A DNA stretch of 64,000 nucleotides from Clostridia bacterium (GTDB lineage: Bacteria; Bacillota; Clostridia; Oscillospirales; CAG-272), in NCBI GenBank assembly GCA_017462035.1, contig JAFTRY010000025.1, forward strand, positions 1-64,000. Reading direction: 5' to 3'. The notes under the pieces were generated by a model. It was not told where the DNA came from and did no database searches. It saw only the letters and a list, made by a program, of their open reading frames with translations. Positions 345-11,518 of this stretch are shown here, in pieces; the stretch's first letter is position 1; each line of letters starts with the position of its first letter. A program made the position numbers and the translations under genes.

Positions 345-1208
345 CTACCGTTCTTTGCTTTTCAGGCGCTCCGCACGCAGGGCAAGGCGATGACGTTGAG
401 GGGTCGTTCCTTTGTATTTCTTGAACACCTTCGTAAAATAACCGCTCTCCCAAAAGCCGCAGTCCGTCGCGATTTGAGTGATGGAGAGATCTGTGAATTC
501 AAGCAAAAAGGTCGCTTGCTCAATGCGATAGGAATTCACGTAATTCATAGGCGTCGTGTGTGTAAGCGAATAGAATATCTTGCAAAAATATCGTGCATTC
601 ATTCCGATCACACCGGCAAGTATATCAAGCGAGAGCTCCTCGTTATAGTGCGCCTCGATGTACTCCAGCACGGGTTTTATGCGGGAGGACCATCGACTTT
701 CGTCGGATGCTTTTTGATAACGCCCCTCTTTGATCAGCCATGAGAAAAGATTTGCGATCGCAGACAGCGTCTCAAGGGAGAGGCAGGGGGATCCACTTGC
801 ATTTGAAAAAATATCCAAAACATCTGCCGGCGCCTTATCCTCCTCGGTAAAAAAGCGGGTGGGCACAAAATCCATGCAAAAAAACGGGCGCAGATGCGTT
901 TTGGCGGCTTCGGTCTTGCCAAACAGGCCGTAAAGATCAAAAACAAGACACTCGTATACGCAATCCATCGGCTCGCCGCCGTGCAGCGTTTCTCCCGGGA
1001 TCAGTACGATATCGCCCTTTTTGATCAGATGCTGCTCTTCGTCAAGGGTCAGCGACAGCTCACCTTCCATCACGCGCAGCAGCTCCCACTCGTTGTGCCA
1101 ATGGAATGCCATTCGGTAACGCGGATGTGTGCTGTTCACATAGTAATACTCAACGGGGAATTCAGCAGAACCGTGCTGTTTTTTATCAAGATAATCGATT
1201 TTTTGCAA
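345..1208 (-). CDS. AraC-family transcriptional regulator
   Basis: A cytoplasmic sugar- or metabolite-responsive regulator of about 287 residues. The N-terminal half is a cupin-type sensor with the pattern AFHWHNEWELLRVMEG. The C-terminal ~100 residues hold the two helix-turn-helix motifs of the AraC family, ending in the signature region around GFWESGYFTKVFKKYKG. I prefer a TTG start at 1208: GGGAGG lies 7 nt upstream of it, whereas the in-frame ATG at 1241 falls almost at the predicted transcription start. It is divergent from the ASRT-like/M24/creatininase genes and their promoters overlap, so it probably controls that trio. The ligand is unknown. Confidence 0.88.
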   Translation of the reverse strand: MQKIDYLDKKQHGSAEFPVEYYYVNSTHPRYRMAFHWHNEWELLRVMEGELSLTLDEEQHLIKKGDIVLIPGETLHGGEPMDCVYECLVFDLYGLFGKTEAAKTHLRPFFCMDFVPTRFFTEEDKAPADVLDIFSNASGSPCLSLETLSAIANLFSWLIKEGRYQKASDESRWSSRIKPVLEYIEAHYNEELSLDILAGVIGMNARYFCKIFYSLTHTTPMNYVNSYRIEQATFLLEFTDLSITQIATDCGFWESGYFTKVFKKYKGTTPQRHRLALRAERLKSKER

Positions 1209-1249
1209 GTATATCCCTCCCAAAAGTGACGATTTTACCATTTGTGCTG

Positions 1250-1279
1250 ATTATACCACAAGAAATGCTTGCTTGTCAA
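1250..1279 (-). promoter_or_regulatory. promoter of the AraC gene
   Basis: On the minus strand, TTGACA (1279-1274), an 18-nt spacer and TATAAT (1255-1250). The -35 box lies only 3 nt from the -10 box of the divergent promoter at 1280-1288, so the two are unlikely to be occupied at once. Confidence 0.75.
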
Positions 1280-1288
1280 TGCTATAAT
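1280..1288 (+). promoter_or_regulatory. extended -10 promoter of the ASRT-like gene
   Basis: The sequence TGCTATAAT (1280-1288) is an extended -10 element with no good -35 box, typical of an activator-dependent promoter. It sits just upstream of the AAAGGAGGTG ribosome binding site of the gene at 1312 and overlaps the AraC promoter region. Confidence 0.6.
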
Positions 1289-1311
1289 TGTGATAAAGGA
1301 GGTGTTATCCT

Positions 1312-1668
1312 ATGAGCTACGGAAAAAAAGTATGGGTTTTTCCCGATGCCGAGCTTCCGCCCGTGGGCGAAAACGAAATACCGGGACACGAATCCGTCAT
1401 CATCACAAACGTGACCGATCAATGCGCACACGTCAGATTTACGCTGATATATACTGACCGTGAGCCCGTTTGCTTTGACGCCAAGGTAGAGGCTAAGCGC
1501 GTTCGCTGCCTGCGTTCAAACAACACCGACGATTTTTGCGGTCACACGGCGACGGAGGGTGAGCAGTATGCGATTATGCTTGAGAGCGACGTCCCGATCG
1601 TTGCGCAGTACGGACGGGCAGAACCGAGAAAGGTCAATTTCTACACGACTCCCGGCTATTGTGAGTAA
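1312..1668 (+). CDS. sensory rhodopsin transducer (ASRT)-like protein
   Basis: 118 residues, cytoplasmic. The pattern (tryptophan near the start, PPVGEN, HESVIITNV, CAHVRFTLIYTDREPV, a run of basic residues, SDVPIVAQYGR) matches what I know of the Anabaena sensory rhodopsin transducer family (PF07100-type). That family comprises small all-beta oligomeric proteins proposed to bind small molecules, usually encoded beside metabolic genes and not beside rhodopsins. Its strong RBS and 25-nt spacing to the M24-like gene indicate an operon. No rhodopsin gene is present, so a light-sensing role is unlikely; a ligand-binding or sensor role in the linked amidohydrolase pathway is my inference. Confidence 0.75.
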   Translation: MSYGKKVWVFPDAELPPVGENEIPGHESVIITNVTDQCAHVRFTLIYTDREPVCFDAKVEAKRVRCLRSNNTDDFCGHTATEGEQYAIMLESDVPIVAQYGRAEPRKVNFYTTPGYCE

Positions 1669-1693
1669 TAAAATTAAAGAAGGAGAAAAAACA

Positions 1694-2866
1694 ATGTCAA
1701 GAATTTGTATTCCGGATCACGAGTATAAAGAAAGAGTGAAGAAGGCTGCTGCCATTCTTCAGCGCGAGGGTCTTGATGCCCTTATCGTGAACGGTAACGA
1801 GGCTGATTACGCCAATCCCAGGTATTTTTCCGGCTTCTGGCCGCTTTTTGAGCGTGCAGGTGTAGCGATCTCGGCCACCGGTGAGGCAGCCCTTATGGTG
1901 GGACCCGAGTCCGCCATCTTTGGCGCGGACAGAAACAAGCTTGAAAAAACCTTTGTTCTGACCGCTTATCGTGAGGGTGCAGACCCCGCGTATCCCGAGC
2001 TCAAGCCCGATACCTTTGCGGATGTGTTCAAGTATCTCAAGGTCACCGGCAAAAAGATCCGCATCGGAATTGCATCCTTCCTCGACACCTCGGTTGTCAT
2101 TTTCAATGCTATCCGCGATGCATTTCCCGAGGCCGAAATCGTGGATGCGGGTAAAATCATGGTGGAGCTTCGCTCTATCAAGAGCGAAAATGAGCTCAAC
2201 TGTCTGCGAGAGGGCTACCGCATTGCAAGCATTGCCACAGAAGAGGTCATCAAGGCCATCCGTCCCGGCATGACTGAGCTTCAGATGGTAGGCGTTGCGC
2301 AGCGTGCAGTTTATGAAAACGGCGCGGAATACGAGGGACTTCCCATGTACGTATTCTCCGAGGCTTCTACGCGCCATGCGATCTCCCGTTCCTCCTACCG
2401 TGAATTTAAGAAGGGGGATATCGTTCAGCTGAACCTGTCTGCCAAGATAGACGGCTATTCTGCCGCTATCGGTTATCCCATTTGCCTCGGCAAGCTGGAG
2501 GGACAGCGCAAGGAGATCGTTCAGTTCTGCCGTGACGCTCACAAGTGGAGCGAGGAGCAGATCAAGGCGGGCGTTTTTGCCGCAGATATCGCAAAGGGCT
2601 CCTATCAGTATTACGTTGACCACGGCTATGAGAAGAATTACGTTTACGGTCCTCTTCACGGCACGGGTATTATCGAGGTGGAGGCTCCTTGGTGCGAAAC
2701 CAGCTCCGATTATTATCTGAAGCCCAATATGTGCTATCAGGTTGACACCTTCATATCCGCAGATACCTTCGGCGTACGCTGGGAAAAGGGCATTGTGGTA
2801 AAAGAAAACGGCTTTGAAAAGCTGAGCCCCGAAATTCCCGCATTCTGCCCCGAAAAACTCTTCTGA
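1694..2866 (+). CDS. M24 family creatinase-like protein, metal site lost
   Basis: 390 residues in the pita-bread (M24) fold: an N-terminal creatinase-type domain (about 1-160) and a C-terminal catalytic-type domain. In metallopeptidases of this family the ligands are Asp, Asp, His, Glu, Glu. Here the first Asp is Asn247, the second is Ala258, His322 is kept, the first Glu is Asp351 and the last is Glu364. Such loss is known in creatinase, which hydrolyses C-N bonds without metal. The start at 1694 has AGAAGGAG upstream. The next gene is creatininase-like, so a creatine-type amidino or amide substrate is plausible; Xaa-Pro peptidase activity is unlikely. A pseudoenzyme cannot be excluded. Confidence 0.8.
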   Translation: MSRICIPDHEYKERVKKAAAILQREGLDALIVNGNEADYANPRYFSGFWPLFERAGVAISATGEAALMVGPESAIFGADRNKLEKTFVLTAYREGADPAYPELKPDTFADVFKYLKVTGKKIRIGIASFLDTSVVIFNAIRDAFPEAEIVDAGKIMVELRSIKSENELNCLREGYRIASIATEEVIKAIRPGMTELQMVGVAQRAVYENGAEYEGLPMYVFSEASTRHAISRSSYREFKKGDIVQLNLSAKIDGYSAAIGYPICLGKLEGQRKEIVQFCRDAHKWSEEQIKAGVFAADIAKGSYQYYVDHGYEKNYVYGPLHGTGIIEVEAPWCETSSDYYLKPNMCYQVDTFISADTFGVRWEKGIVVKENGFEKLSPEIPAFCPEKLF

Positions 2867-2884
2867 TAACAAGGAGGCAATTCT

Positions 2885-3622
2885 ATGCAATTGCTGGAAA
2901 TGCTGTATGACGAAATCCAGGACGCAGTAGACAGAAACGTTCCGTTTATCATCCCGATCGGGACGATGGAATATCATGCGCGGCACGCTTCCTGCGGAAC
3001 CGACACCTTGGTGGTAACGGGTTGCCTTCGCGAGCTTGAAAAGGAAAAGGAGATCGTCGTCTGCCCTCCCATTTGGTACGGAGTGGCTTCTTATGCCGTA
3101 TGTGATGCAAAGCCTTCGCATTTTCACGTCGATGAGGATGTGTATGCCGATTACATTTACTGTGTGTTGAAGTCCATGATTCATGCAGGGCACAAGAACG
3201 TGTATCTGATCCCTCACCATCAGACCGAGGGCGCAGGCTTGATGCCCATGACGATCGCATGTCATAAGGCGGCGAAAAAGGTCACCATGGAATATATGGA
3301 GGAAAAGCTGGGCAGAGGCTGGTGGGGCAGCGATGCTTACGCCACCTACTATGAGGATCTGGGCGGAGGAGAGGATCCCTTTTCCTATATCAAGGTGATC
3401 CCCTTGATCGGAGCGGAGGCTCAGAAGAAGTGCGGCGGCTTTGACCACGCGGGCAAATGGGAGACCTCCTTGCTGATGGGAACGTATCCCGATCTGGTGG
3501 ATCTTTCGCGCTGTGAACGCAATACCGAGTGGTTTGCGCAAAGCGCAAAAGAAGCAAGCGAAGCGCTCGGCAAGCATATGGTTGCTTGCACGCTGGAATG
3601 GCTTCGTGAGGCAATCGTATGA
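2885..3622 (+). CDS. creatininase family amidohydrolase
   Basis: 245 residues, close to the family's usual length. The motif PIGTMEYHARH...GTDT supplies candidate metal ligands Glu29, His31 and Asp40. A His-His pair (111-112) with Glu115 replaces the common NGHGGN stretch, and the late motif DHAGKWETSLLM matches the AGxxET segment of the family. Members hydrolyse cyclic amides (creatininase) or formamides in cofactor biosynthesis. An AAGGAGG RBS and 18-nt spacing place it as the last gene of the trio, followed by a hairpin terminator. The exact substrate is unknown. Confidence 0.82.
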   Translation: MQLLEMLYDEIQDAVDRNVPFIIPIGTMEYHARHASCGTDTLVVTGCLRELEKEKEIVVCPPIWYGVASYAVCDAKPSHFHVDEDVYADYIYCVLKSMIHAGHKNVYLIPHHQTEGAGLMPMTIACHKAAKKVTMEYMEEKLGRGWWGSDAYATYYEDLGGGEDPFSYIKVIPLIGAEAQKKCGGFDHAGKWETSLLMGTYPDLVDLSRCERNTEWFAQSAKEASEALGKHMVACTLEWLREAIV

Positions 3623-3686: not shown

Positions 3687-3735
3687 TTGGACACATCACT
3701 AAGGAAAACCCTTAAAATGATGTGTCCAACTTTTT
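3687..3735 (+). terminator. bidirectional hairpin terminator, copy 1 of a 43-nt repeat
   Basis: A 12-bp stem, TTGGACACATCA (3687-3698) with TGATGTGTCCAA (3718-3729), contains an inner AAGG/CCTT hairpin and is followed by a T-run; an A-run precedes it, so it can work on both strands. It separates convergent genes. The same element recurs at 8295-8337 with two differences in 43 positions. Confidence 0.85.
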
Positions 3736-3740
3736 TATTG

Positions 3741-6098
3741 TTAATTTTCGCGTTGCTTTTTGTTCAGTATCTTGACGCCCGTCAGGATAACCGTGGCGCA
3801 GTCGTCCTCGTTTGCGGTGTACGAAAGCAAGGTGATGCGCTTTTCAGGGTGAGGATTTTCCCATATATAGGCGGTCAGCAGTACGTCCTCGCCGTGGAAT
3901 TTTTCCTCCAACGTGGGGTCGGAAAACCAAGTGCCGACGTAACCGTTATGGCGGTGGTAAGCACCCTGAAGCGGATCGCCGTATTTGCGGTTATAATGCT
4001 GCACGTTTCCAAAATGCTCTGCGGGAACGGTTACCTTTTCGCCGTCCTCATAGGTCGCGGTGTAGGTGCCGCACACATAGTTGGGAGCCCATTCAATGTG
4101 AGGGGGGGCCTGCAACGTGGTGTGCTCGATAGCAAGGCGATCGGCCTTGGCCTGTATCTGCACCTCGCACCCATCTGCTACGATGGCCTGCGGACGGTAA
4201 GCAAGCAGTGCCTCCGGCAAGGAACTGTTGCCTCGGGGCAAGGGGATCTCTGTGCTTGCATATCCCGCGGGGCAGTATTTGCCGCGCATCTCGTCGCGCT
4301 GTACGGGCTGAAGACGTTTGGAGATCAGATGTGCGTAAATTTCGCGCAGAGAGGGATCGTATTGCTCGGTGTTCCAAAGCATTTGGGCGGTGTAGGTCAG
4401 ATCAAATATTTTGCCCCGGCGACCGAAGTTGGCTTCCTTGGTCAGTGCCCACATAGAAACTTGACCGCCCACCATACCGTCCTGCATCATGCGTTGACGG
4501 TATCTGGGGTAGTGAGAGGAATAAAGATTGCCCACAGCCACGCGGAAGCCTAACGGCAGCAGATTATTTTCAAGATCCTTATCGAAATGGAAATACCAAA
4601 TGAAATCCAGGCAAAGGATATCCTTGGGGATCAGATTGGCGGCATTGGCGGTCTGGTATTTCGTGCATGGCTGCAGCATATCCGACCACATAATCGTGCC
4701 GAGTCCCTTTTGCTTGAGGTAATCGTAAAGGCGGTTGATATGGCGTGCCAACAGCACGTCGTGGGGCGTGTTTTTGCATTTTGGGCAAAGACCCAGATGA
4801 TATACCTCATCGTGGCCTATATGCACGTAGCGTTGGGGCTTGGTGACCTCCACAATTTCGTCGATAATATCAAAAATGATCTCGTAGCTCTTTTCGTTGG
4901 AGGGGCAATAGCAGTGGGTATAGAAATTTTCCGGTCTCGCGTCCTCGTTGCGCGTGTCGGTCACATCCTTGTCTGCCTCAGCACGCTCTGCGATTTCGGG
5001 ATGTGCGTAGGTGATATACTGCACATGTCCAAGGCTTTGAATTTCGGGAATGGGTTCGATGCCGAACTCCTTGATATAGTCAAACAGCTCAGCTACCTGC
5101 CATTTTTCAAGCAGCTCGCCCTCAGCCACTTCGCTGTGGGGAAAATAGGGCTGCAATCCCGCCTTGGCGCGTGCCACGCCGCAAAGCCATCCCTCCGAGA
5201 TCTCGGGGTGTCGGTCAAAGCGCATGGCACCCGCAAATTCAATAAACATGGTATTATAGCCGAGGGGCAATAGAACATAGCGCACCAAACGCTTGAAAAA
5301 CTCGATTTCCCGCACGGCGGGAAGGTACAAATGAATGCCGCGCAGAGGCTTGGTGGGCCAATCCTCTACGTGCACGATGGGACAGGCACCGTTCCGACAA
5401 ATATCAAGAAGCTTGCAGACGGCATACATCAGCATAAAGCGAGAGCCCGCCGTCAATACGATGCCGTTTTTGGTGCAATCAACGGTATAGCGCTCTCCGT
5501 CGTAGCCGTCGGAGGCAAGCACCAGCGTGGCACAAACACCGCCCTCGTTAAGCTGTCCAAAGCGCTCCGTCAGGCGCTCGCGCAGAAAGTTTGCGGCGGC
5601 TTTTTCGTCCTCGTGCGCGGTTGCAGTTTTGATATCGGAAATACGAACAAGCTCTTCTCCCGCCGTCAGCGTTTTTGCCATCGGCCAGGTAAAGGGACTG
5701 TCCTCGCGGCGGCAAACGGCAATTTCGGGTGCTGTGAAGGAGAGGTCGTGCAGGACGGTGTGGATACGCAAGATCAAGGCGCTTGCGTATGCACCCACAC
5801 CGACCGTCAGCGTTCCACAGGCAGTTTTGCCCGTTTCGGCCGTGTATTTCGCTACCGTGCGCCCGTCTGCCAATACCTCAAAGCCACGGATTTGAGAACC
5901 CTCTTCAAGCGGGAGCGTAACAGAGCCGACAAACATATGCTCCTGCAGGTCGATTTGAATATCAACACCCGTGTAGTAAAGCTGCTTCCAGCTGAACGTA
6001 GTAACGCCGTTTTCAACGCTCGTCGGCGCGCAGGGGAGGCTCGTGCCGATTTTGGTATAGGTGAACGGCGTGTTGCTCTCAAAATAACCAATATACAT
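3741..6098 (-). CDS. GH20-type beta-N-acetylhexosaminidase-like protein
   Basis: 785 residues with no signal peptide, so it probably acts on imported oligosaccharides. Residues 1-130 form a beta-rich domain, followed by a GH20b-like alpha/beta domain and a TIM barrel from about residue 250. The HIGHDEV motif gives Asp430-Glu431, matching the Asp-Glu catalytic pair of GH20, where Asp orients the substrate acetamido group and Glu is the acid. A CxxC pair (438, 441) follows directly. The C-terminal ~200 residues look like an extra beta domain. AAGGAG precedes the ATG. It lies 41 nt downstream of the WbsX-like gene, so the two are co-transcribed. Confidence 0.8.
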   Translation of the reverse strand: MYIGYFESNTPFTYTKIGTSLPCAPTSVENGVTTFSWKQLYYTGVDIQIDLQEHMFVGSVTLPLEEGSQIRGFEVLADGRTVAKYTAETGKTACGTLTVGVGAYASALILRIHTVLHDLSFTAPEIAVCRREDSPFTWPMAKTLTAGEELVRISDIKTATAHEDEKAAANFLRERLTERFGQLNEGGVCATLVLASDGYDGERYTVDCTKNGIVLTAGSRFMLMYAVCKLLDICRNGACPIVHVEDWPTKPLRGIHLYLPAVREIEFFKRLVRYVLLPLGYNTMFIEFAGAMRFDRHPEISEGWLCGVARAKAGLQPYFPHSEVAEGELLEKWQVAELFDYIKEFGIEPIPEIQSLGHVQYITYAHPEIAERAEADKDVTDTRNEDARPENFYTHCYCPSNEKSYEIIFDIIDEIVEVTKPQRYVHIGHDEVYHLGLCPKCKNTPHDVLLARHINRLYDYLKQKGLGTIMWSDMLQPCTKYQTANAANLIPKDILCLDFIWYFHFDKDLENNLLPLGFRVAVGNLYSSHYPRYRQRMMQDGMVGGQVSMWALTKEANFGRRGKIFDLTYTAQMLWNTEQYDPSLREIYAHLISKRLQPVQRDEMRGKYCPAGYASTEIPLPRGNSSLPEALLAYRPQAIVADGCEVQIQAKADRLAIEHTTLQAPPHIEWAPNYVCGTYTATYEDGEKVTVPAEHFGNVQHYNRKYGDPLQGAYHRHNGYVGTWFSDPTLEEKFHGEDVLLTAYIWENPHPEKRITLLSYTANEDDCATVILTGVKILNKKQREN

Positions 6099-6139
6099 TT
6101 TTGTTCTCCTTGTTCGATCATATTCAATTTCGGTTAATT

Positions 6140-7255
6140 TTACTGATCCTTAAATACTTTCTTCACTGCTTCAAGATAGCCGTAACCGTAAAGATTGTCC
6201 GGCTGAAGATAGCTCGTCTCCGTCCACTCATTCCAGCTGTTTATCGTAATCAGCGGTGCCGGCAGATTATGGGTATCAACGTATTCCTTTGCTTGAATGA
6301 ATGCTTTTTGGATATTTTCGGGTGTGTTATTCGTTATTATGCAGGGCTGAAACTTGCGGAATCTGGGATTGGCATCCCAACCGAGAGATACTTGCGGAAA
6401 ATACCTAATACCCCTTTCGTCCATTTCATCATAATTCTTCTTGTGGATCTTGATCATTTCGCCATAATCGTTATCGCGTTCTTGTCGCGTTCCCATATTG
6501 TAATGCGTAACACTGTCAAAATCAAGCATCCCGTAGACATCTAATACACTTGCGCCAAATTTCCCGTCGAAATCAAACATCTCAAAGGCGTTATAAATTA
6601 ACTGCAGGTGAAGCCCCGGGAACCCGGCGCGCTTTACCTCTTCTCTGAAATAGGCAATAGCCTCCTTTGCGCCGTCAAATCCGCCAAAGCTTTTTAGAAA
6701 GTTTTTAATGCTATATATGGAAAGCACCGGCTTGCCGTCTATCCTATAGTAAGATGGGTGGGAGAAATACTTTTCTATCCAGCGCTTGACTATAGTTTTG
6801 AAGGTATCAAAGGAAACATCGCCGCGCCAGATAATCTCGTTGCCGCATTCATCGGAATGATCAATACTCCAAACGTGATTTGCATTATGATTCGCCCACA
6901 TTATGTAAAACTTTACAAGATTATTATTTGTTGCCCTGAGATATCCATCGGTAAGACAATTTTCAAGAAACGGCCTGCCGTCATACCAATACCAGTCATA
7001 AATGAATACGTTGACACCATGCTTGTAAGCACAGTTGATTTGCATCTCCATAATGTCGGGATTCGCCTCGTTTACATAACCCCAAAGGGGGCGTCTGTCC
7101 CAAACGTAATTCTTTGGCTTGCCCACGCTGTTCTTTTTTACGTTGTGAACCGTTTGCCACTCTCCGTAACCCTCACTCCAAAACAGTCGGGCTCTCATAT
7201 CATCGCCTGTATAAGACGGCCATACATATGCCGCAATATCATATTTCTGCATCAT
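6140..7255 (-). CDS. GH99-like / WbsX domain protein
   Basis: 371 residues with features of the glycosyltransferase WbsX / GH99-like family (PF14307-type): the opening YDIAAYVWPSY, GVNVFIYDWYWYDGRP, GKPVLSIYS and the end motif INSWNEWTETSYLQPD. The fold is a TIM barrel related to endo-alpha-mannosidases. Biochemical roles of most members are unproven, so hydrolase or transferase is open. GGAGAG precedes two adjacent ATGs (7255 and 7252). It is the first gene of the island read toward 3741, divergent from an AraC regulator, and probably acts with the GH20-like enzyme on a glycan. Confidence 0.78.
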   Translation of the reverse strand: MMQKYDIAAYVWPSYTGDDMRARLFWSEGYGEWQTVHNVKKNSVGKPKNYVWDRRPLWGYVNEANPDIMEMQINCAYKHGVNVFIYDWYWYDGRPFLENCLTDGYLRATNNNLVKFYIMWANHNANHVWSIDHSDECGNEIIWRGDVSFDTFKTIVKRWIEKYFSHPSYYRIDGKPVLSIYSIKNFLKSFGGFDGAKEAIAYFREEVKRAGFPGLHLQLIYNAFEMFDFDGKFGASVLDVYGMLDFDSVTHYNMGTRQERDNDYGEMIKIHKKNYDEMDERGIRYFPQVSLGWDANPRFRKFQPCIITNNTPENIQKAFIQAKEYVDTHNLPAPLITINSWNEWTETSYLQPDNLYGYGYLEAVKKVFKDQ

Positions 7256-7380: not shown

Positions 7381-8277
7381 ATGCAAAAACGAGCATATCA
7401 GCAACTTTCATACTATAATACGTACTTTTCGCCGCTCCCTGCTGAACAAAACGAGCCCGTATACTTCAGCGGCATTTATACCAAGCTTCCGTACGCAGAC
7501 GATTTCACGTTTCTTCATTATCATGACCGTTACGAAATAGGGATCTGTGAAAGTGGAGAGGGTCTGTTTTTGTCCGAAGGTGTTTTTTCATCGGTATCCA
7601 AAGGCGATCTCATATTCATTGCCCCGTCACGACGTCACTACTCAAGATCATTAAGCCGTGAGAGCCCATGTGTTTGCCGTTTTGCCTATTTACATGCATC
7701 AACCGTGGAGCAGCTGATTTCTTTATCCGCATCGGAAGGCAAAAAGGAACTCATCACCTCCTGCGCACAAAGCATTCCATCTGTTATTCATCCCACGGAA
7801 GATCCCAAGTCGGCAGAGCTGCTTGCGCGCATTATGGAAGCATGTGCAAAGAAGACGCATGAAGGCGATATGGTGGCGGCACTTCTCATATCCGCGTTTA
7901 TGATCGAGTCCTGCGAGGTATATCCCCCCTTTTCTCCGCCTCATATCATGAGTAACACCAATGACGCAATTTCACAAATCTCGGAGTACCTTTATCTTCA
8001 TTACTCCGATTCGGATACTTCAAAATTTTTAGCGCAAAAGTGTCATTTGAGCGAAAGTCAGCTTCGCAGACGTTTTGTGTCGGTATACGGAATGCCACCT
8101 ATCGCCTACCGTAACCTTTTGCGATGTCGGATCGCCGCCGAGCTGCTGACGAGAACAGATATGCCTGTTTCCGAAATCTCGGGCAGGATAGGATTTCATA
8201 CCACCTCGGACTTTTATCGATCCTTTACAAAAATATACGACACCTCTCCCTCTCATTACAGAACCTCGCATAGATAG
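7381..8277 (+). CDS. AraC-family transcriptional regulator
   Basis: 298 residues. The N-terminal cupin sensor (FLHYHDRYEIGICESGEG) is followed by a linker and a C-terminal double helix-turn-helix domain (LAQKCHLSESQLRRRF; ISGRIGFHTTSDFYRSFTKIY). It is divergent from the WbsX-like/GH20-like operon and is its likely activator. The ribosome binding site (GAAAGG) is further from the ATG than usual, so a slightly different start is possible. It differs clearly from the AraC protein at 345-1208, so it is not a recent duplicate. The inducer is probably a glycan breakdown product (inference). Confidence 0.88.
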   Translation: MQKRAYQQLSYYNTYFSPLPAEQNEPVYFSGIYTKLPYADDFTFLHYHDRYEIGICESGEGLFLSEGVFSSVSKGDLIFIAPSRRHYSRSLSRESPCVCRFAYLHASTVEQLISLSASEGKKELITSCAQSIPSVIHPTEDPKSAELLARIMEACAKKTHEGDMVAALLISAFMIESCEVYPPFSPPHIMSNTNDAISQISEYLYLHYSDSDTSKFLAQKCHLSESQLRRRFVSVYGMPPIAYRNLLRCRIAAELLTRTDMPVSEISGRIGFHTTSDFYRSFTKIYDTSPSHYRTSHR

Positions 8278-8349: not shown

Positions 8350-8568
8350 ATTTTGATGAATTGCAATCTGCGATTGCATGAATTGAAGCCTGCGGCTTCA
8401 TGATTTCTCGTCGGCGCGCCGACTCCATAAATTGAATTGCCCATGCGCGCACTGCGCATGATGCGCCGGCAGGCGCAATTCATGGCGAAGCCAATTCATG
8501 ATTGCAAAGCAATCAATTCATGCCCGCAAGGGCAATTCATTGTCATTCGCTTTGCGAATTACTTGTAG
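8350..8568. repeat. array of unlike palindromes with AATTCATG spacers
   Basis: About nine consecutive hairpins of different sequence: TGCAATC/GATTGCA, GAAGCC/GGCTTC, GTCGGC/GCCGAC, CATGCGC/GCGCATG, TGCGCC/GGCGCA, TGGC/GCCA, GATTGC/GCAATC, TGCCC/GGGCA and ATTCGC/GCGAAT. Each has a 2-5 nt loop, and most are joined by AATTCATG or close variants. The joiner is constant and the stems vary. The array abuts the stop codon of the GGGtGRT gene and no protein is encoded. Confidence 0.85.
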
Positions 8569-9557
8569 CTCTCCTCAATAGCTACTGCTACTGCAACCGT
8601 CATACCAACCATGGGGTTGTTACCTGCGCCGATGAGGCCCATCATCTCAACGTGTGCGGGCACGGAGGAGGAGCCTGCGAACTGGGCGTCGGAGTGCATA
8701 CGGCCCATGGTGTCGGTCATACCGTAAGAGGAGGGACCTGCGGCCATGTTATCGGGGTGCAGGGTACGACCCGTGCCACCGCCGGAGGCAACGGAGAAGT
8801 ACTGCTTGCCGTTCTCCTGGCACCACTTCTTGTAGGTGCCGGCAACGGGATGCTGGAAGCGGGTGGGGTTGGTGGAGTTACCGGTGATGGAAACGCCAAC
8901 GTTCTCCAGCTTCATGATCGCAACACCCTCGGGCACGTTGTCAGCGCCGTAGCAGTTGACCTTTGCGCGGGGACCGTTGGAGAAGGATTTCTTCTCAACC
9001 ACCTTTACTGTCTCGGTGTAGGGGTCAAACTCGGTGCGGCAGTAGGTAAAGCCGTTGATACGGGAAATGATGTAAGCTGCGTCCTTGCCCAAACCGTTCA
9101 GAATGACGCGCAGGGGATTGGTGCGAACCTTGTTTGCGTTCAACGCGATCTTAATCGCGCCCTCTGCAGCTGCAAAGGACTCGTGTCCTGCCAGGAAGCA
9201 GAAGCACTCGGTCTCCTCGGAGAGGAGCATTGCGCCCAGGTTTCCGTGACCAAGACCTACCTTACGGTTCTCGGCAACAGAACCGGGAATGCAGAATGCC
9301 TGCAAACCGATACCGATTGCGGCAGCAGCATCAGCCGCCTTGGTGCAACCCTTCTTGATCGCGATTGCGGCGCCAACGGTATACGCCCACTTTGCGTTTT
9401 CAAAGCAAATAGGCTGAGTTTCTTCGGTAATCTTATAGGGATCGATTCCCTTTGCGGCGCAAATCTCCTTGCACTCATCGATGGAGGAGATGCCGTATTC
9501 CTTCAGGACGCCCAGGATCTTCGCCTCGCGTCTCTCGTAACCTTCAAAATGTGCCAT
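8559..9557 (-). CDS. GGGtGRT family protein
   Basis: 332 residues carrying the name-giving motif ASGGGTGRTLHPDNMAAG in the C-terminal half. The family (PF14057-type) is widespread in anaerobic Clostridia and its function is not established as far as I know. The segment SAKWAYTVGAAIAIKKG-like helix-rich N-terminus and ETECFCFLAGHESFAAAEGA in the middle are soluble, and no membrane segment is seen. It starts 17 nt after a NifU-like scaffold gene with a good RBS, the usual partnership for this family, so a role linked to iron-sulfur or sulfur chemistry is an inference from context only. Confidence 0.88.
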   Translation of the reverse strand: MAHFEGYERREAKILGVLKEYGISSIDECKEICAAKGIDPYKITEETQPICFENAKWAYTVGAAIAIKKGCTKAADAAAAIGIGLQAFCIPGSVAENRKVGLGHGNLGAMLLSEETECFCFLAGHESFAAAEGAIKIALNANKVRTNPLRVILNGLGKDAAYIISRINGFTYCRTEFDPYTETVKVVEKKSFSNGPRAKVNCYGADNVPEGVAIMKLENVGVSITGNSTNPTRFQHPVAGTYKKWCQENGKQYFSVASGGGTGRTLHPDNMAAGPSSYGMTDTMGRMHSDAQFAGSSSVPAHVEMMGLIGAGNNPMVGMTVAVAVAIEESYK

Positions 9558-9574
9558 TTATGTGTACCTCCTGA

Positions 9575-10291
9575 TTATTCCTTACGGGGATCGATGTACT
9601 TCACAGCATCAGCAAATCTGCCGTATGTACCCTTGGATTTCTCGTATGCTTCGTTAGGCTCCATACCCTTCTTGATGAAGTCGGTCATCTTGCCCAGAGA
9701 AACAAACTCGTATCCAATCACCTGGTCATCTGCGTCCAGAGCCATTCTGGTGCAGTAACCCTCGGTCATTTCCAGGTAACGAACGCCCTTTGCCTTAGTT
9801 CCATACATGGTACCAACCATGGATCTTTCGCCCTTACCCAGGTCCTCCATACCGGCACCGATCACCAAACCGCCCTCAGAGAACGCGGACTGGGAACGAC
9901 CGTAAACGATCTGGAGGAAAAGCTCTCTCATAGCGGTGTTGATGGCATCACATACCAAGTCGGTATTGAGCGCCTCCAAGAGAGTCTTGCCGGGCAGGAT
10001 CTCAGCAGCCATTGCCGCAGAGTGGGTCATACCCGAGCATCCGATGGTCTCAACGAGAGCTTCCTCAATGATGCCGTTCTTTACGTTCAGGGACAGCTTG
10101 CAGGCGCCCTGCTGAGGTGCGCACCAGCCCACTCCGTGAGTGTACGCAGAGATGTCGGTGATCTCCTTTACCTGTACCCACTTGCCCTCTTCCGGAATGG
10201 GGGCGGGACCGTGGTTGGGTCCTTTTGCTACCGTACACATCTTCTGAACTTCAGTGCTCATTGCGTACTCGCAAGAAAATTCTTTGCTCAT
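9575..10291 (-). CDS. NifU-like iron-sulfur cluster scaffold protein
   Basis: 238 residues with an IscU/NifU N-terminal-type fold: VKNGIIEEALVETIGCSGMTHSAAMAAEILPGKTL is the typical core. It has extra segments relative to IscU (usually about 130 residues): an N-terminal ~55-residue region and a C-terminal ~80-residue region. Cys residues at GWCAPQQGAC and IGCSG are candidate cluster ligands. It lies between an SGNH hydrolase gene (23 nt) and the GGGtGRT gene (17 nt) in one operon. Whether it assembles clusters for GGGtGRT or for general use cannot be told from sequence. Confidence 0.8.
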   Translation of the reverse strand: MSKEFSCEYAMSTEVQKMCTVAKGPNHGPAPIPEEGKWVQVKEITDISAYTHGVGWCAPQQGACKLSLNVKNGIIEEALVETIGCSGMTHSAAMAAEILPGKTLLEALNTDLVCDAINTAMRELFLQIVYGRSQSAFSEGGLVIGAGMEDLGKGERSMVGTMYGTKAKGVRYLEMTEGYCTRMALDADDQVIGYEFVSLGKMTDFIKKGMEPNEAYEKSKGTYGRFADAVKYIDPRKE

Positions 10292-10314
10292 TGTTTTATC
10301 TCCTTTGATAAAAA

Positions 10315-10935
10315 TTATAAACTTTCAATCAGAGGCTTGACCGCCTCGATATAGAGCTCCCCGATAAAGGCGGCTCCGTTGGCATTGGGGTGAATCCCAT
10401 CTGCTGAATAATACTTAGGCTCCGGTTGAGTCTTCAAAGCCTCGGCAAAACGCTCGTCCAAAGGAATATACACATCGGCAAATTCCTTCGCGAGGTCTCG
10501 AATGATTGGAAGAATCGTTTTCATATCCTCCCGAATCTCCTCTTTGTCTTCCGCGTCCAGCAAATACGGAGCAATCATCACGATCTTAGCCCCGGTCTCG
10601 TGCTTCAAGCGGTTCAAAATGGACCGATAATTCAATGCGAATTGCTCGTCGGAGGTCAAAATCTTATGGGTGTGGCGATGCCACATATCATTGATCCCAA
10701 CCATCACCGAAACCACGTCAGGTTGAAACTTAATCGCGTCCGCGTAAAGGCGGTCAAACAGTTGACTCGTGCGGTTCCCGGCAATTCCCAAATTAATAAA
10801 TTCCAGCTCCGCATCGGGATACGCTACCCGCAGCTTTTCCGCGGCATAATTGGCATATCCGTGCCCAAGCTCATGATAATTTCTTTTATCACGACCCGCG
10901 TCCGTTATGCTGTCTCCCTGAAACAGTATTCTCAT
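10315..10935 (-). CDS. SGNH/GDSL-family hydrolase
   Basis: 206 residues with the full SGNH signature: block I GDSITD (nucleophile Ser9), a Gly in LGIAGNRTS, Asn in VGINDMWHR and the Asp/His pair in DGIHPNANG. There is no signal peptide, so it is probably a cytoplasmic esterase or deacetylase. It begins 10 nt after pduL and ends 23 nt before the NifU-like gene, so it belongs to the same operon. The substrate is unknown; acetyl esters of sugars are common for this family. Confidence 0.87.
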   Translation of the reverse strand: MRILFQGDSITDAGRDKRNYHELGHGYANYAAEKLRVAYPDAELEFINLGIAGNRTSQLFDRLYADAIKFQPDVVSVMVGINDMWHRHTHKILTSDEQFALNYRSILNRLKHETGAKIVMIAPYLLDAEDKEEIREDMKTILPIIRDLAKEFADVYIPLDERFAEALKTQPEPKYYSADGIHPNANGAAFIGELYIEAVKPLIESL

Positions 10936-10945
10936 GGAAGCCTCC

Positions 10946-11518
10946 TTATTTTACGATCTCGCCGTACACCGTACCAAATGCGCAAGCGGCGTTGGACTCG
11001 TCGGTATCAATATGCATTGCCAAGGCAAAATTCTTATTGACTCTGACCACCACGTCGTCAAAAATCAGAGGACGGGCTGTATCCAGCTTGACCTTTACGA
11101 TTTCCTTATCGGAAACACCCAGCTCCTCTGCGTCAGCGGGAGTCATGTGGATGTGTCGCTTGGCGGCAATGACACCCTCAGCAATATCGATTGAGCCGCA
11201 GGGACCTTCGATCTTACAACCGACGCTTCCTGCCACGTCACCCGACTCACGAACTGGAACACCCGCGACACCAATGGTACGCGCGTCAGTCAGAGAAAGC
11301 TCCACTTGATTTGCGGGGCGGGTCGGTCCCAAAATACTCGCCTTCAAGGATCCCTTCGGTCCGATTACCGTAACCTTTTCCTCACAAGCGAACTGACCGG
11401 GCTGACTCAGATTCTTTTTGTTTGTCAGCTCATGTCCCTTACCGAACAGAATCTCCACCGCCTCGGCGGTCAGATGAACATGTCTGGCAGAAGTTTCAAC
11501 CAAAATTTTGTTTGCCAT
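10946..11518 (-). CDS. pduL: phosphate propanoyltransferase (PduL-type phosphotransacylase)
   Basis: 190 residues from the ATG at 11518, preceded by GAGAGGG. PduL interconverts acyl-CoA and acyl phosphate. Zinc-binding patterns are visible: ARHVHLT near the N-terminus, KRHIHMT in the middle and ALAMHIDTDE near the end, consistent with the duplicated beta-barrel fold. No microcompartment shell genes and no encapsulation extension are seen, so it is likely the housekeeping acetyl-CoA/acetyl-phosphate enzyme. It is the first gene of the operon that continues into the SGNH, NifU-like and GGGtGRT genes. Confidence 0.88.
   Translation of the reverse strand: MANKILVETSARHVHLTAEAVEILFGKGHELTNKKNLSQPGQFACEEKVTVIGPKGSLKASILGPTRPANQVELSLTDARTIGVAGVPVRESGDVAGSVGCKIEGPCGSIDIAEGVIAAKRHIHMTPADAEELGVSDKEIVKVKLDTARPLIFDDVVVRVNKNFALAMHIDTDESNAACAFGTVYGEIVK

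Follow-up and report, generated by a model that had tools for sequence, protein, structure and literature searches.

Organization of the locus

The window (the whole stretch of 64,000 nucleotides that was analyzed) carries a three-gene operon on the forward strand at positions 1312–3622, divergent from a gene for an AraC-family regulator. The operon encodes an ASRT-family protein of a derived type (1312–1668; 118 amino acids), an M24-fold protein with a degenerate metal site (1694–2866; 390 amino acids), and a creatininase-family protein, here CRN (2885–3622; 245 amino acids), with gaps of 25 and 18 bp between the genes. The initial annotation had assigned the ASRT, M24, creatininase, and AraC families by motif, and all four assignments were borne out by Pfam, with the matches of the three operon proteins above the curated cut-offs; its span of 1208–3622 begins at the AraC start codon, whereas the operon proper begins at 1312.

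The regulator (345–1208, reverse strand) has an N-terminal cupin and matched HTH_18, AraC_binding, and Cupin_2 in Pfam. Its gene starts with TTG at 1208 behind GGGAGG, and the same start point was found in AraC homologues of related loci; a longer alternative would start with ATG at 1241. A σ70 promoter for this gene lies at 1250–1279 on the reverse strand (TTGACA and TATAAT separated by 18 bp, with TG before the −10 element), matching the consensus at 12 of 12 positions. For the three-gene operon, a scan of the forward strand returned no promoter above threshold. A TATAAT seen directly in the sequence at 1283–1288 (forward strand), with no recognizable −35 element, is a candidate activator-dependent promoter and would suit activation by AraC. 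Downstream, a terminator hairpin of 12 pairs followed by TTTTTT (3687–3736, forward strand; −22.7 kcal/mol, fold z −6.9) sits between the operon and a convergent GH20-like gene. The latter, which includes the motif HIGHDE, and a WbsX/GH99-like gene occupy 3741–7255 on the reverse strand, and a second AraC gene lies beyond this pair (7381–8277, forward strand).

Conservation of the three-gene unit

When the M24 protein was used to scan a genome collection, 80 loci at 65–94% identity were recovered, hosted by Oscillospiraceae, other Clostridia, Lachnospiraceae, Christensenellaceae, Spirochaetes, Paenibacillus, Cohnella (Paenibacillaceae), and one Bacteroidales MAG. Neighbors were counted by tblastn at the 63 loci with at least 2.5 kb of flank on both sides. 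Within 3 kb of the M24 gene, ASRT was present at 46/63 loci, CRN at 45/63, and both at 32/63, so that the co-occurrence proposed by the initial annotation was found, and more widely than it had supposed. The commonest complete orders among the 80 loci were ASRT–M24–CRN (27 loci) and M24–ASRT–CRN (13 loci), with gaps mostly below 100 bp in both orders and across distant genomes, and divergent AraC genes of two types accompany many of the units. The trio is a real, recurring gene unit in gut bacteria. Within the taxonomic order to which the window belongs, a match of at least 60% identity was found in 24 of 394 genomes (one match being partial) and was absent from two genomes of the same genus; the unit is therefore patchy. 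Distance correlations between members of the trio (0.85–0.92) were set aside, since common descent alone gives such values. No paper joining ASRT, creatininase, M24, and mutarotase was found in the open-access literature, and the three-gene unit seems not to have been described previously.

Active-site residues of the M24-fold protein

The product of 1694–2866 matched M24 (PF00557, 5.6e-27) and Creatinase_N (PF01321, 1.2e-11) in Pfam, and a sequence search of the PDB returned prolidases and creatinase. Its AlphaFold model (pLDDT 93.9) has the M24 fold, matching creatinase with Z 40.5 and Xaa-Pro dipeptidase with Z 40.8. In a search of phage families with all three trio proteins, the sole match was an unnamed one to the M24 protein.

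Residue columns were taken from an alignment to 2ZSG and 1CHM (the 1CHM and 1J2T sequences used were confirmed to be identical to those in the PDB). The prolidase ligands Asp, Asp, His, Glu, and Glu correspond to Asn-247, Ala-258, His-322, Asp-351, and Glu-364, of which the Ala-258 position is variable, and the catalytic His of the vHE motif corresponds to Val-329. The window protein thus lacks the full set of five ligands and catalytic His of an M24 metallopeptidase; it shares with Xaa-Pro dipeptidases and aminopeptidases (2ZSG and 5CDE) the fold (Z 38–41) and the His and last Glu of the metal site, but neither Asp ligand. With creatinase (1CHM) it shares the whole-length pita-bread fold at 23% identity and an Asn at the first metal position, but the catalytic His-232 and Glu-262 of creatinase are replaced by Ile-230 and Ala-258, with Glu-358 corresponding to Asp-351, and the protein is not a creatinase by these residues. 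Nor did it approach the equivalog for the ectoine hydrolase DoeA (51.2 bits against a cut-off of 613).

Pocket residues are invariant, and very densely so, across 102 close M24 relatives. His-322, Glu-328, Glu-330, Asp-351, Arg-362, and Glu-364 are also invariant in paralogues of 24–38% identity, and likewise Asp-28, Tyr-44, Glu-53, Arg-160, and Glu-195 across close and distant paralogues. This pattern of invariance points to a working active site. The initial description of the protein as metal-less holds for the dinuclear site (Asn-247 and Ala-258), but a mononuclear site may be formed by His-322, Asp-351, and Glu-364. These relatives constitute a conserved non-peptidase branch, which the database name Xaa-Pro peptidase misdescribes.

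The creatininase-family protein and its exchange for other metallohydrolases

The CRN protein matched PF02633 (2.7e-28; 99.4 bits against a cut-off of 31.3), returned creatininase in a sequence search of the PDB, and gave an AlphaFold model (pLDDT 87.7) that matched the creatininase fold with Z 22.7 over 215 residues, placing it in the family. Creatininase (1J2T) residues Glu-34, His-36, Asp-45, His-120, His-178, and Glu-183 are kept as Glu-29, His-31, Asp-40, His-112, His-188, and Glu-193. Four of the five residues of the creatininase metal centre (Glu-34, His-36, Asp-45, His-120, and Glu-122) are among them; the Glu-122 column holds Thr-114, next to an invariant Glu-115. Hydrolysis of an amide, ester, or lactone by this protein is plausible. 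The protein scored far below the creatininase equivalog (TIGR04448; 55.7 bits against 235) and also below its best NCBIfam match, the 3-dehydro-scyllo-inosose hydrolase IolN (NF041098; E 1.3e-16, 60.5 bits against 245), and it differs from both in having HHQ.E and GWWGS motifs of its own.

Where CRN is missing from a locus, its position is often occupied by a NodB-type polysaccharide deacetylase (PF01522). Among the 63 loci of close M24 relatives, 46 had CRN only, seven the deacetylase only, one both, and nine neither within 9 kb, a distribution with a Fisher p of 1.4e-4 when loci are treated as independent despite possible kinship. In paralogues of 35–39% identity, a phosphotriesterase-family (PTE) gene adjoins the M24 gene at all six loci (L143–L148). 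In those of 24–29% identity, the neighbor is PTE at L154, L156, L157, and L160 and M81/MlrC at L149, L151, L152, and L155, with neither of the two seen at L150, L153, L158, L159, L161, and L162. The hydrolase types track M24 clades with some exchange, although the deep branches of the tree are long and unsure. ASRT and M24 form the constant part of a modular unit whose metallohydrolase is exchanged, a feature absent from the initial annotation, and the trio is one of the versions of this unit. That four unrelated metallohydrolase folds are swapped around M24 suggests that the reaction is shared and the leaving group varies.

A derived clade of ASRT proteins

The ASRT family is named for a protein that partners a rhodopsin in a single cyanobacterium. 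The protein encoded at 1312 belongs to the family, as first proposed, with a PF07100 match of E 1.1e-22 (80.7 bits against a cut-off of 25), and a sequence search of the PDB returned 2II7 (Anabaena ASRT) and TM1070 (Thermotoga; 1NC7). It shares with these the PF07100 fold, length, and the signature His and Asn, as well as carbohydrate genes in the neighborhood. It is not a classical ASRT, however: it reads GHESVIITN where the classical signature is SHEshChhN, and the pocket Cys is gone. The same Cys is absent, with a hydrophobic residue in its place, in 75 of 75 aligned trio-linked relatives.

A PF07100-centered sample was obtained by searching 295 genomes of the same order with PF07100 alone and reading the flanks of 62 ASRT genes. 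An M24 gene lay within 3 kb of 21 of the 29 derived ASRT genes, as against none of the 33 classical ones, 12 of which had a rhamnulokinase-like gene nearby. All M24-linked derived proteins lack the signature Cys, whereas the classical proteins retain it. In a tree of 116 sequences, M24-linked members fell into one clade of 82 (SH-aLRT 96), and the classical members and TM1070 into another, to which the window protein does not belong; M24-centered loci are over-represented on this tree, so the PF07100-centered count weighs more. With a clade tied to one enzyme-like partner, the function of the ASRT fold becomes directly testable.

The family was predicted to bind sugars and proposed as a sensor by De Souza et al. 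(2009; PMC2739507), who described neighborhoods of carbohydrate genes with an isomerase–aldolase–kinase set. The derived type adjoins M24 and metallohydrolase genes instead; the initial annotation's suggestion that it may be a sensor or carrier is a reasonable guess and agrees with that proposal.

Several further ASRT observations were made. Eight derived, Cys-less genes have no M24 gene nearby (L172, L180, L182, L212, L215, L217, L218, and L219). The proteins of about 490–540 amino acids at L223–L226 match PF07100 weakly over one segment and may extend the family; an ASRT–M24 fusion was sought in these four, and they were not recognizable as such. A classical ASRT gene comes first in a block of PduL-like, 230-amino acid, and 332-amino acid protein genes at L169, L189, L190, and partly L202. 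The window has a similar block at 8559–11518 (reverse strand; PduL-like, SGNH-type hydrolase, 238-amino acid, and GGGtGRT-type proteins, named by eye), there without an ASRT gene.

Genomic context of the unit

A CUT2 importer lies within 10 kb of the M24 gene at 16 of 50 loci, compared with three CUT2 sites in the whole genome from which the window comes. Other neighbors of the trio family are the sugar-type binding proteins of these importers, RhaM-type mutarotase (PF05336), GH20b/DUF4838, DUF4432, maltose-acetyltransferase-type proteins, FGGY kinases, SDR, a mannitol-dehydrogenase-family protein, and Gfo/Idh/MocA proteins. The shortest complete operons (L102, from Diplocloster agilis, and L112, from Muricomes intestini) encode LacI, a binding protein, a GH20-like protein, RbsA, RbsC, RhaM, ASRT, M24, and CRN, followed in L112 by an acetyltransferase. 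Such neighbors suggest that the substrate is a sugar or a conjugate of one. The accompanying sugar enzymes vary by locus, and a single pathway does not emerge. Near the window copy, whose neighbors are the GH20-like and WbsX/GH99-like genes, there is no importer, kinase, or mutarotase; in its genome, the one CUT2 system read looks nucleoside-type, and the single RhaM is unlinked to the trio. AllA-like genes (PF04115) neighbor the trio at some loci. MtaA/UroD-type methyltransferase and/or B12-binding genes are present in the trio operons of L081, L083, L084, L094, L109, and L110, some of them ruminant, which suggests a methylated substrate.

Proposed function and alternative explanations

We propose, with a probability of about one half, that the trio forms a catabolic module, cytosolic and AraC-linked, whose substrate is a sugar or a small molecule derived from one, with ASRT as ligand-binding partner; the sugar substrate, step order, complex formation, and AraC activation are the parts of this model that we infer. 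At the center would stand the M24 protein, a pita-bread enzyme lacking two of five metal ligands but retaining His-322, Asp-351, and Glu-364 together with the two invariant glutamates Glu-328 and Glu-330, and its chemistry would probably be acid–base (hydrolysis, elimination, or isomerization) rather than peptide cleavage. CRN, in a slot that other metallohydrolase folds could fill, would open or cleave a bond (amide, ester, or lactone) in the step immediately preceding or following that of M24. ASRT would be a dedicated partner of M24 and, as a sensor or accessory subunit, would bind either the sugar-like substrate or an intermediate. Against this model stand the variable sugar enzymes, the lack of an importer, kinase, or mutarotase near the window copy, and the 9/63 loci with neither metallohydrolase within 9 kb; the creatininase fold and AllA-like neighbors would also fit nitrogen compounds. 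More tentatively, ASRT, a metal-degenerate M24 protein, and an exchangeable metallohydrolase might constitute an unrecognized multi-component enzyme system, in which new sugar chemistry takes place on the pita-bread fold and the hydrolase is matched to the group removed; if so, the "rhodopsin transducer" fold would serve as an enzyme subunit or ligand carrier.

A regulatory unit, in which M24 is a non-catalytic pseudoenzyme that senses a sugar together with ASRT and controls neighboring sugar operons while the hydrolase only clears the signal, would accommodate the degenerate metal site, the persistence of ASRT and M24 while the surrounding pathway enzymes change, and the sensor role proposed for ASRT (PMC2739507). 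We consider it unlikely, as the dense invariance of the M24 pocket looks catalytic and AraC or LacI regulators with ligand domains of their own are already at the loci.

The initial annotation had assigned the trio to the catabolism or salvage of an amide or guanidino compound. A dedicated, co-transcribed, AraC-linked unit is upheld by its conservation; the amide or guanidino compound is not supported. Creatinine-like catabolism, with CRN opening a cyclic amide and M24 cleaving the product in the manner of creatinase, would explain why the two hydrolase-type proteins have creatininase and creatinase folds and would suit the AllA-like neighbors, and the NodB-type, PTE, and M81 folds can cut amides too. 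Arg-54, invariant in close relatives, may also correspond to creatinase Arg-64 if an alignment gap is shifted. With creatinase His-232 and Glu-262 missing, both the creatininase and DoeA cut-offs far off, and the informative neighbors, importers and enzymes alike, being sugar-type, this route is unlikely.

An inositol or methyl-inositol route, with CRN acting like IolN, is improbable: IolN is the top NCBIfam match, L086 has an IolG-like Gfo/Idh/MocA gene, and the MtaA/UroD and B12-binding genes of some ruminant operons would fit, but the IolN score is far from its cut-off, no further iol genes were seen, and the RhaM mutarotase in many operons argues for a reducing sugar rather than a cyclitol.
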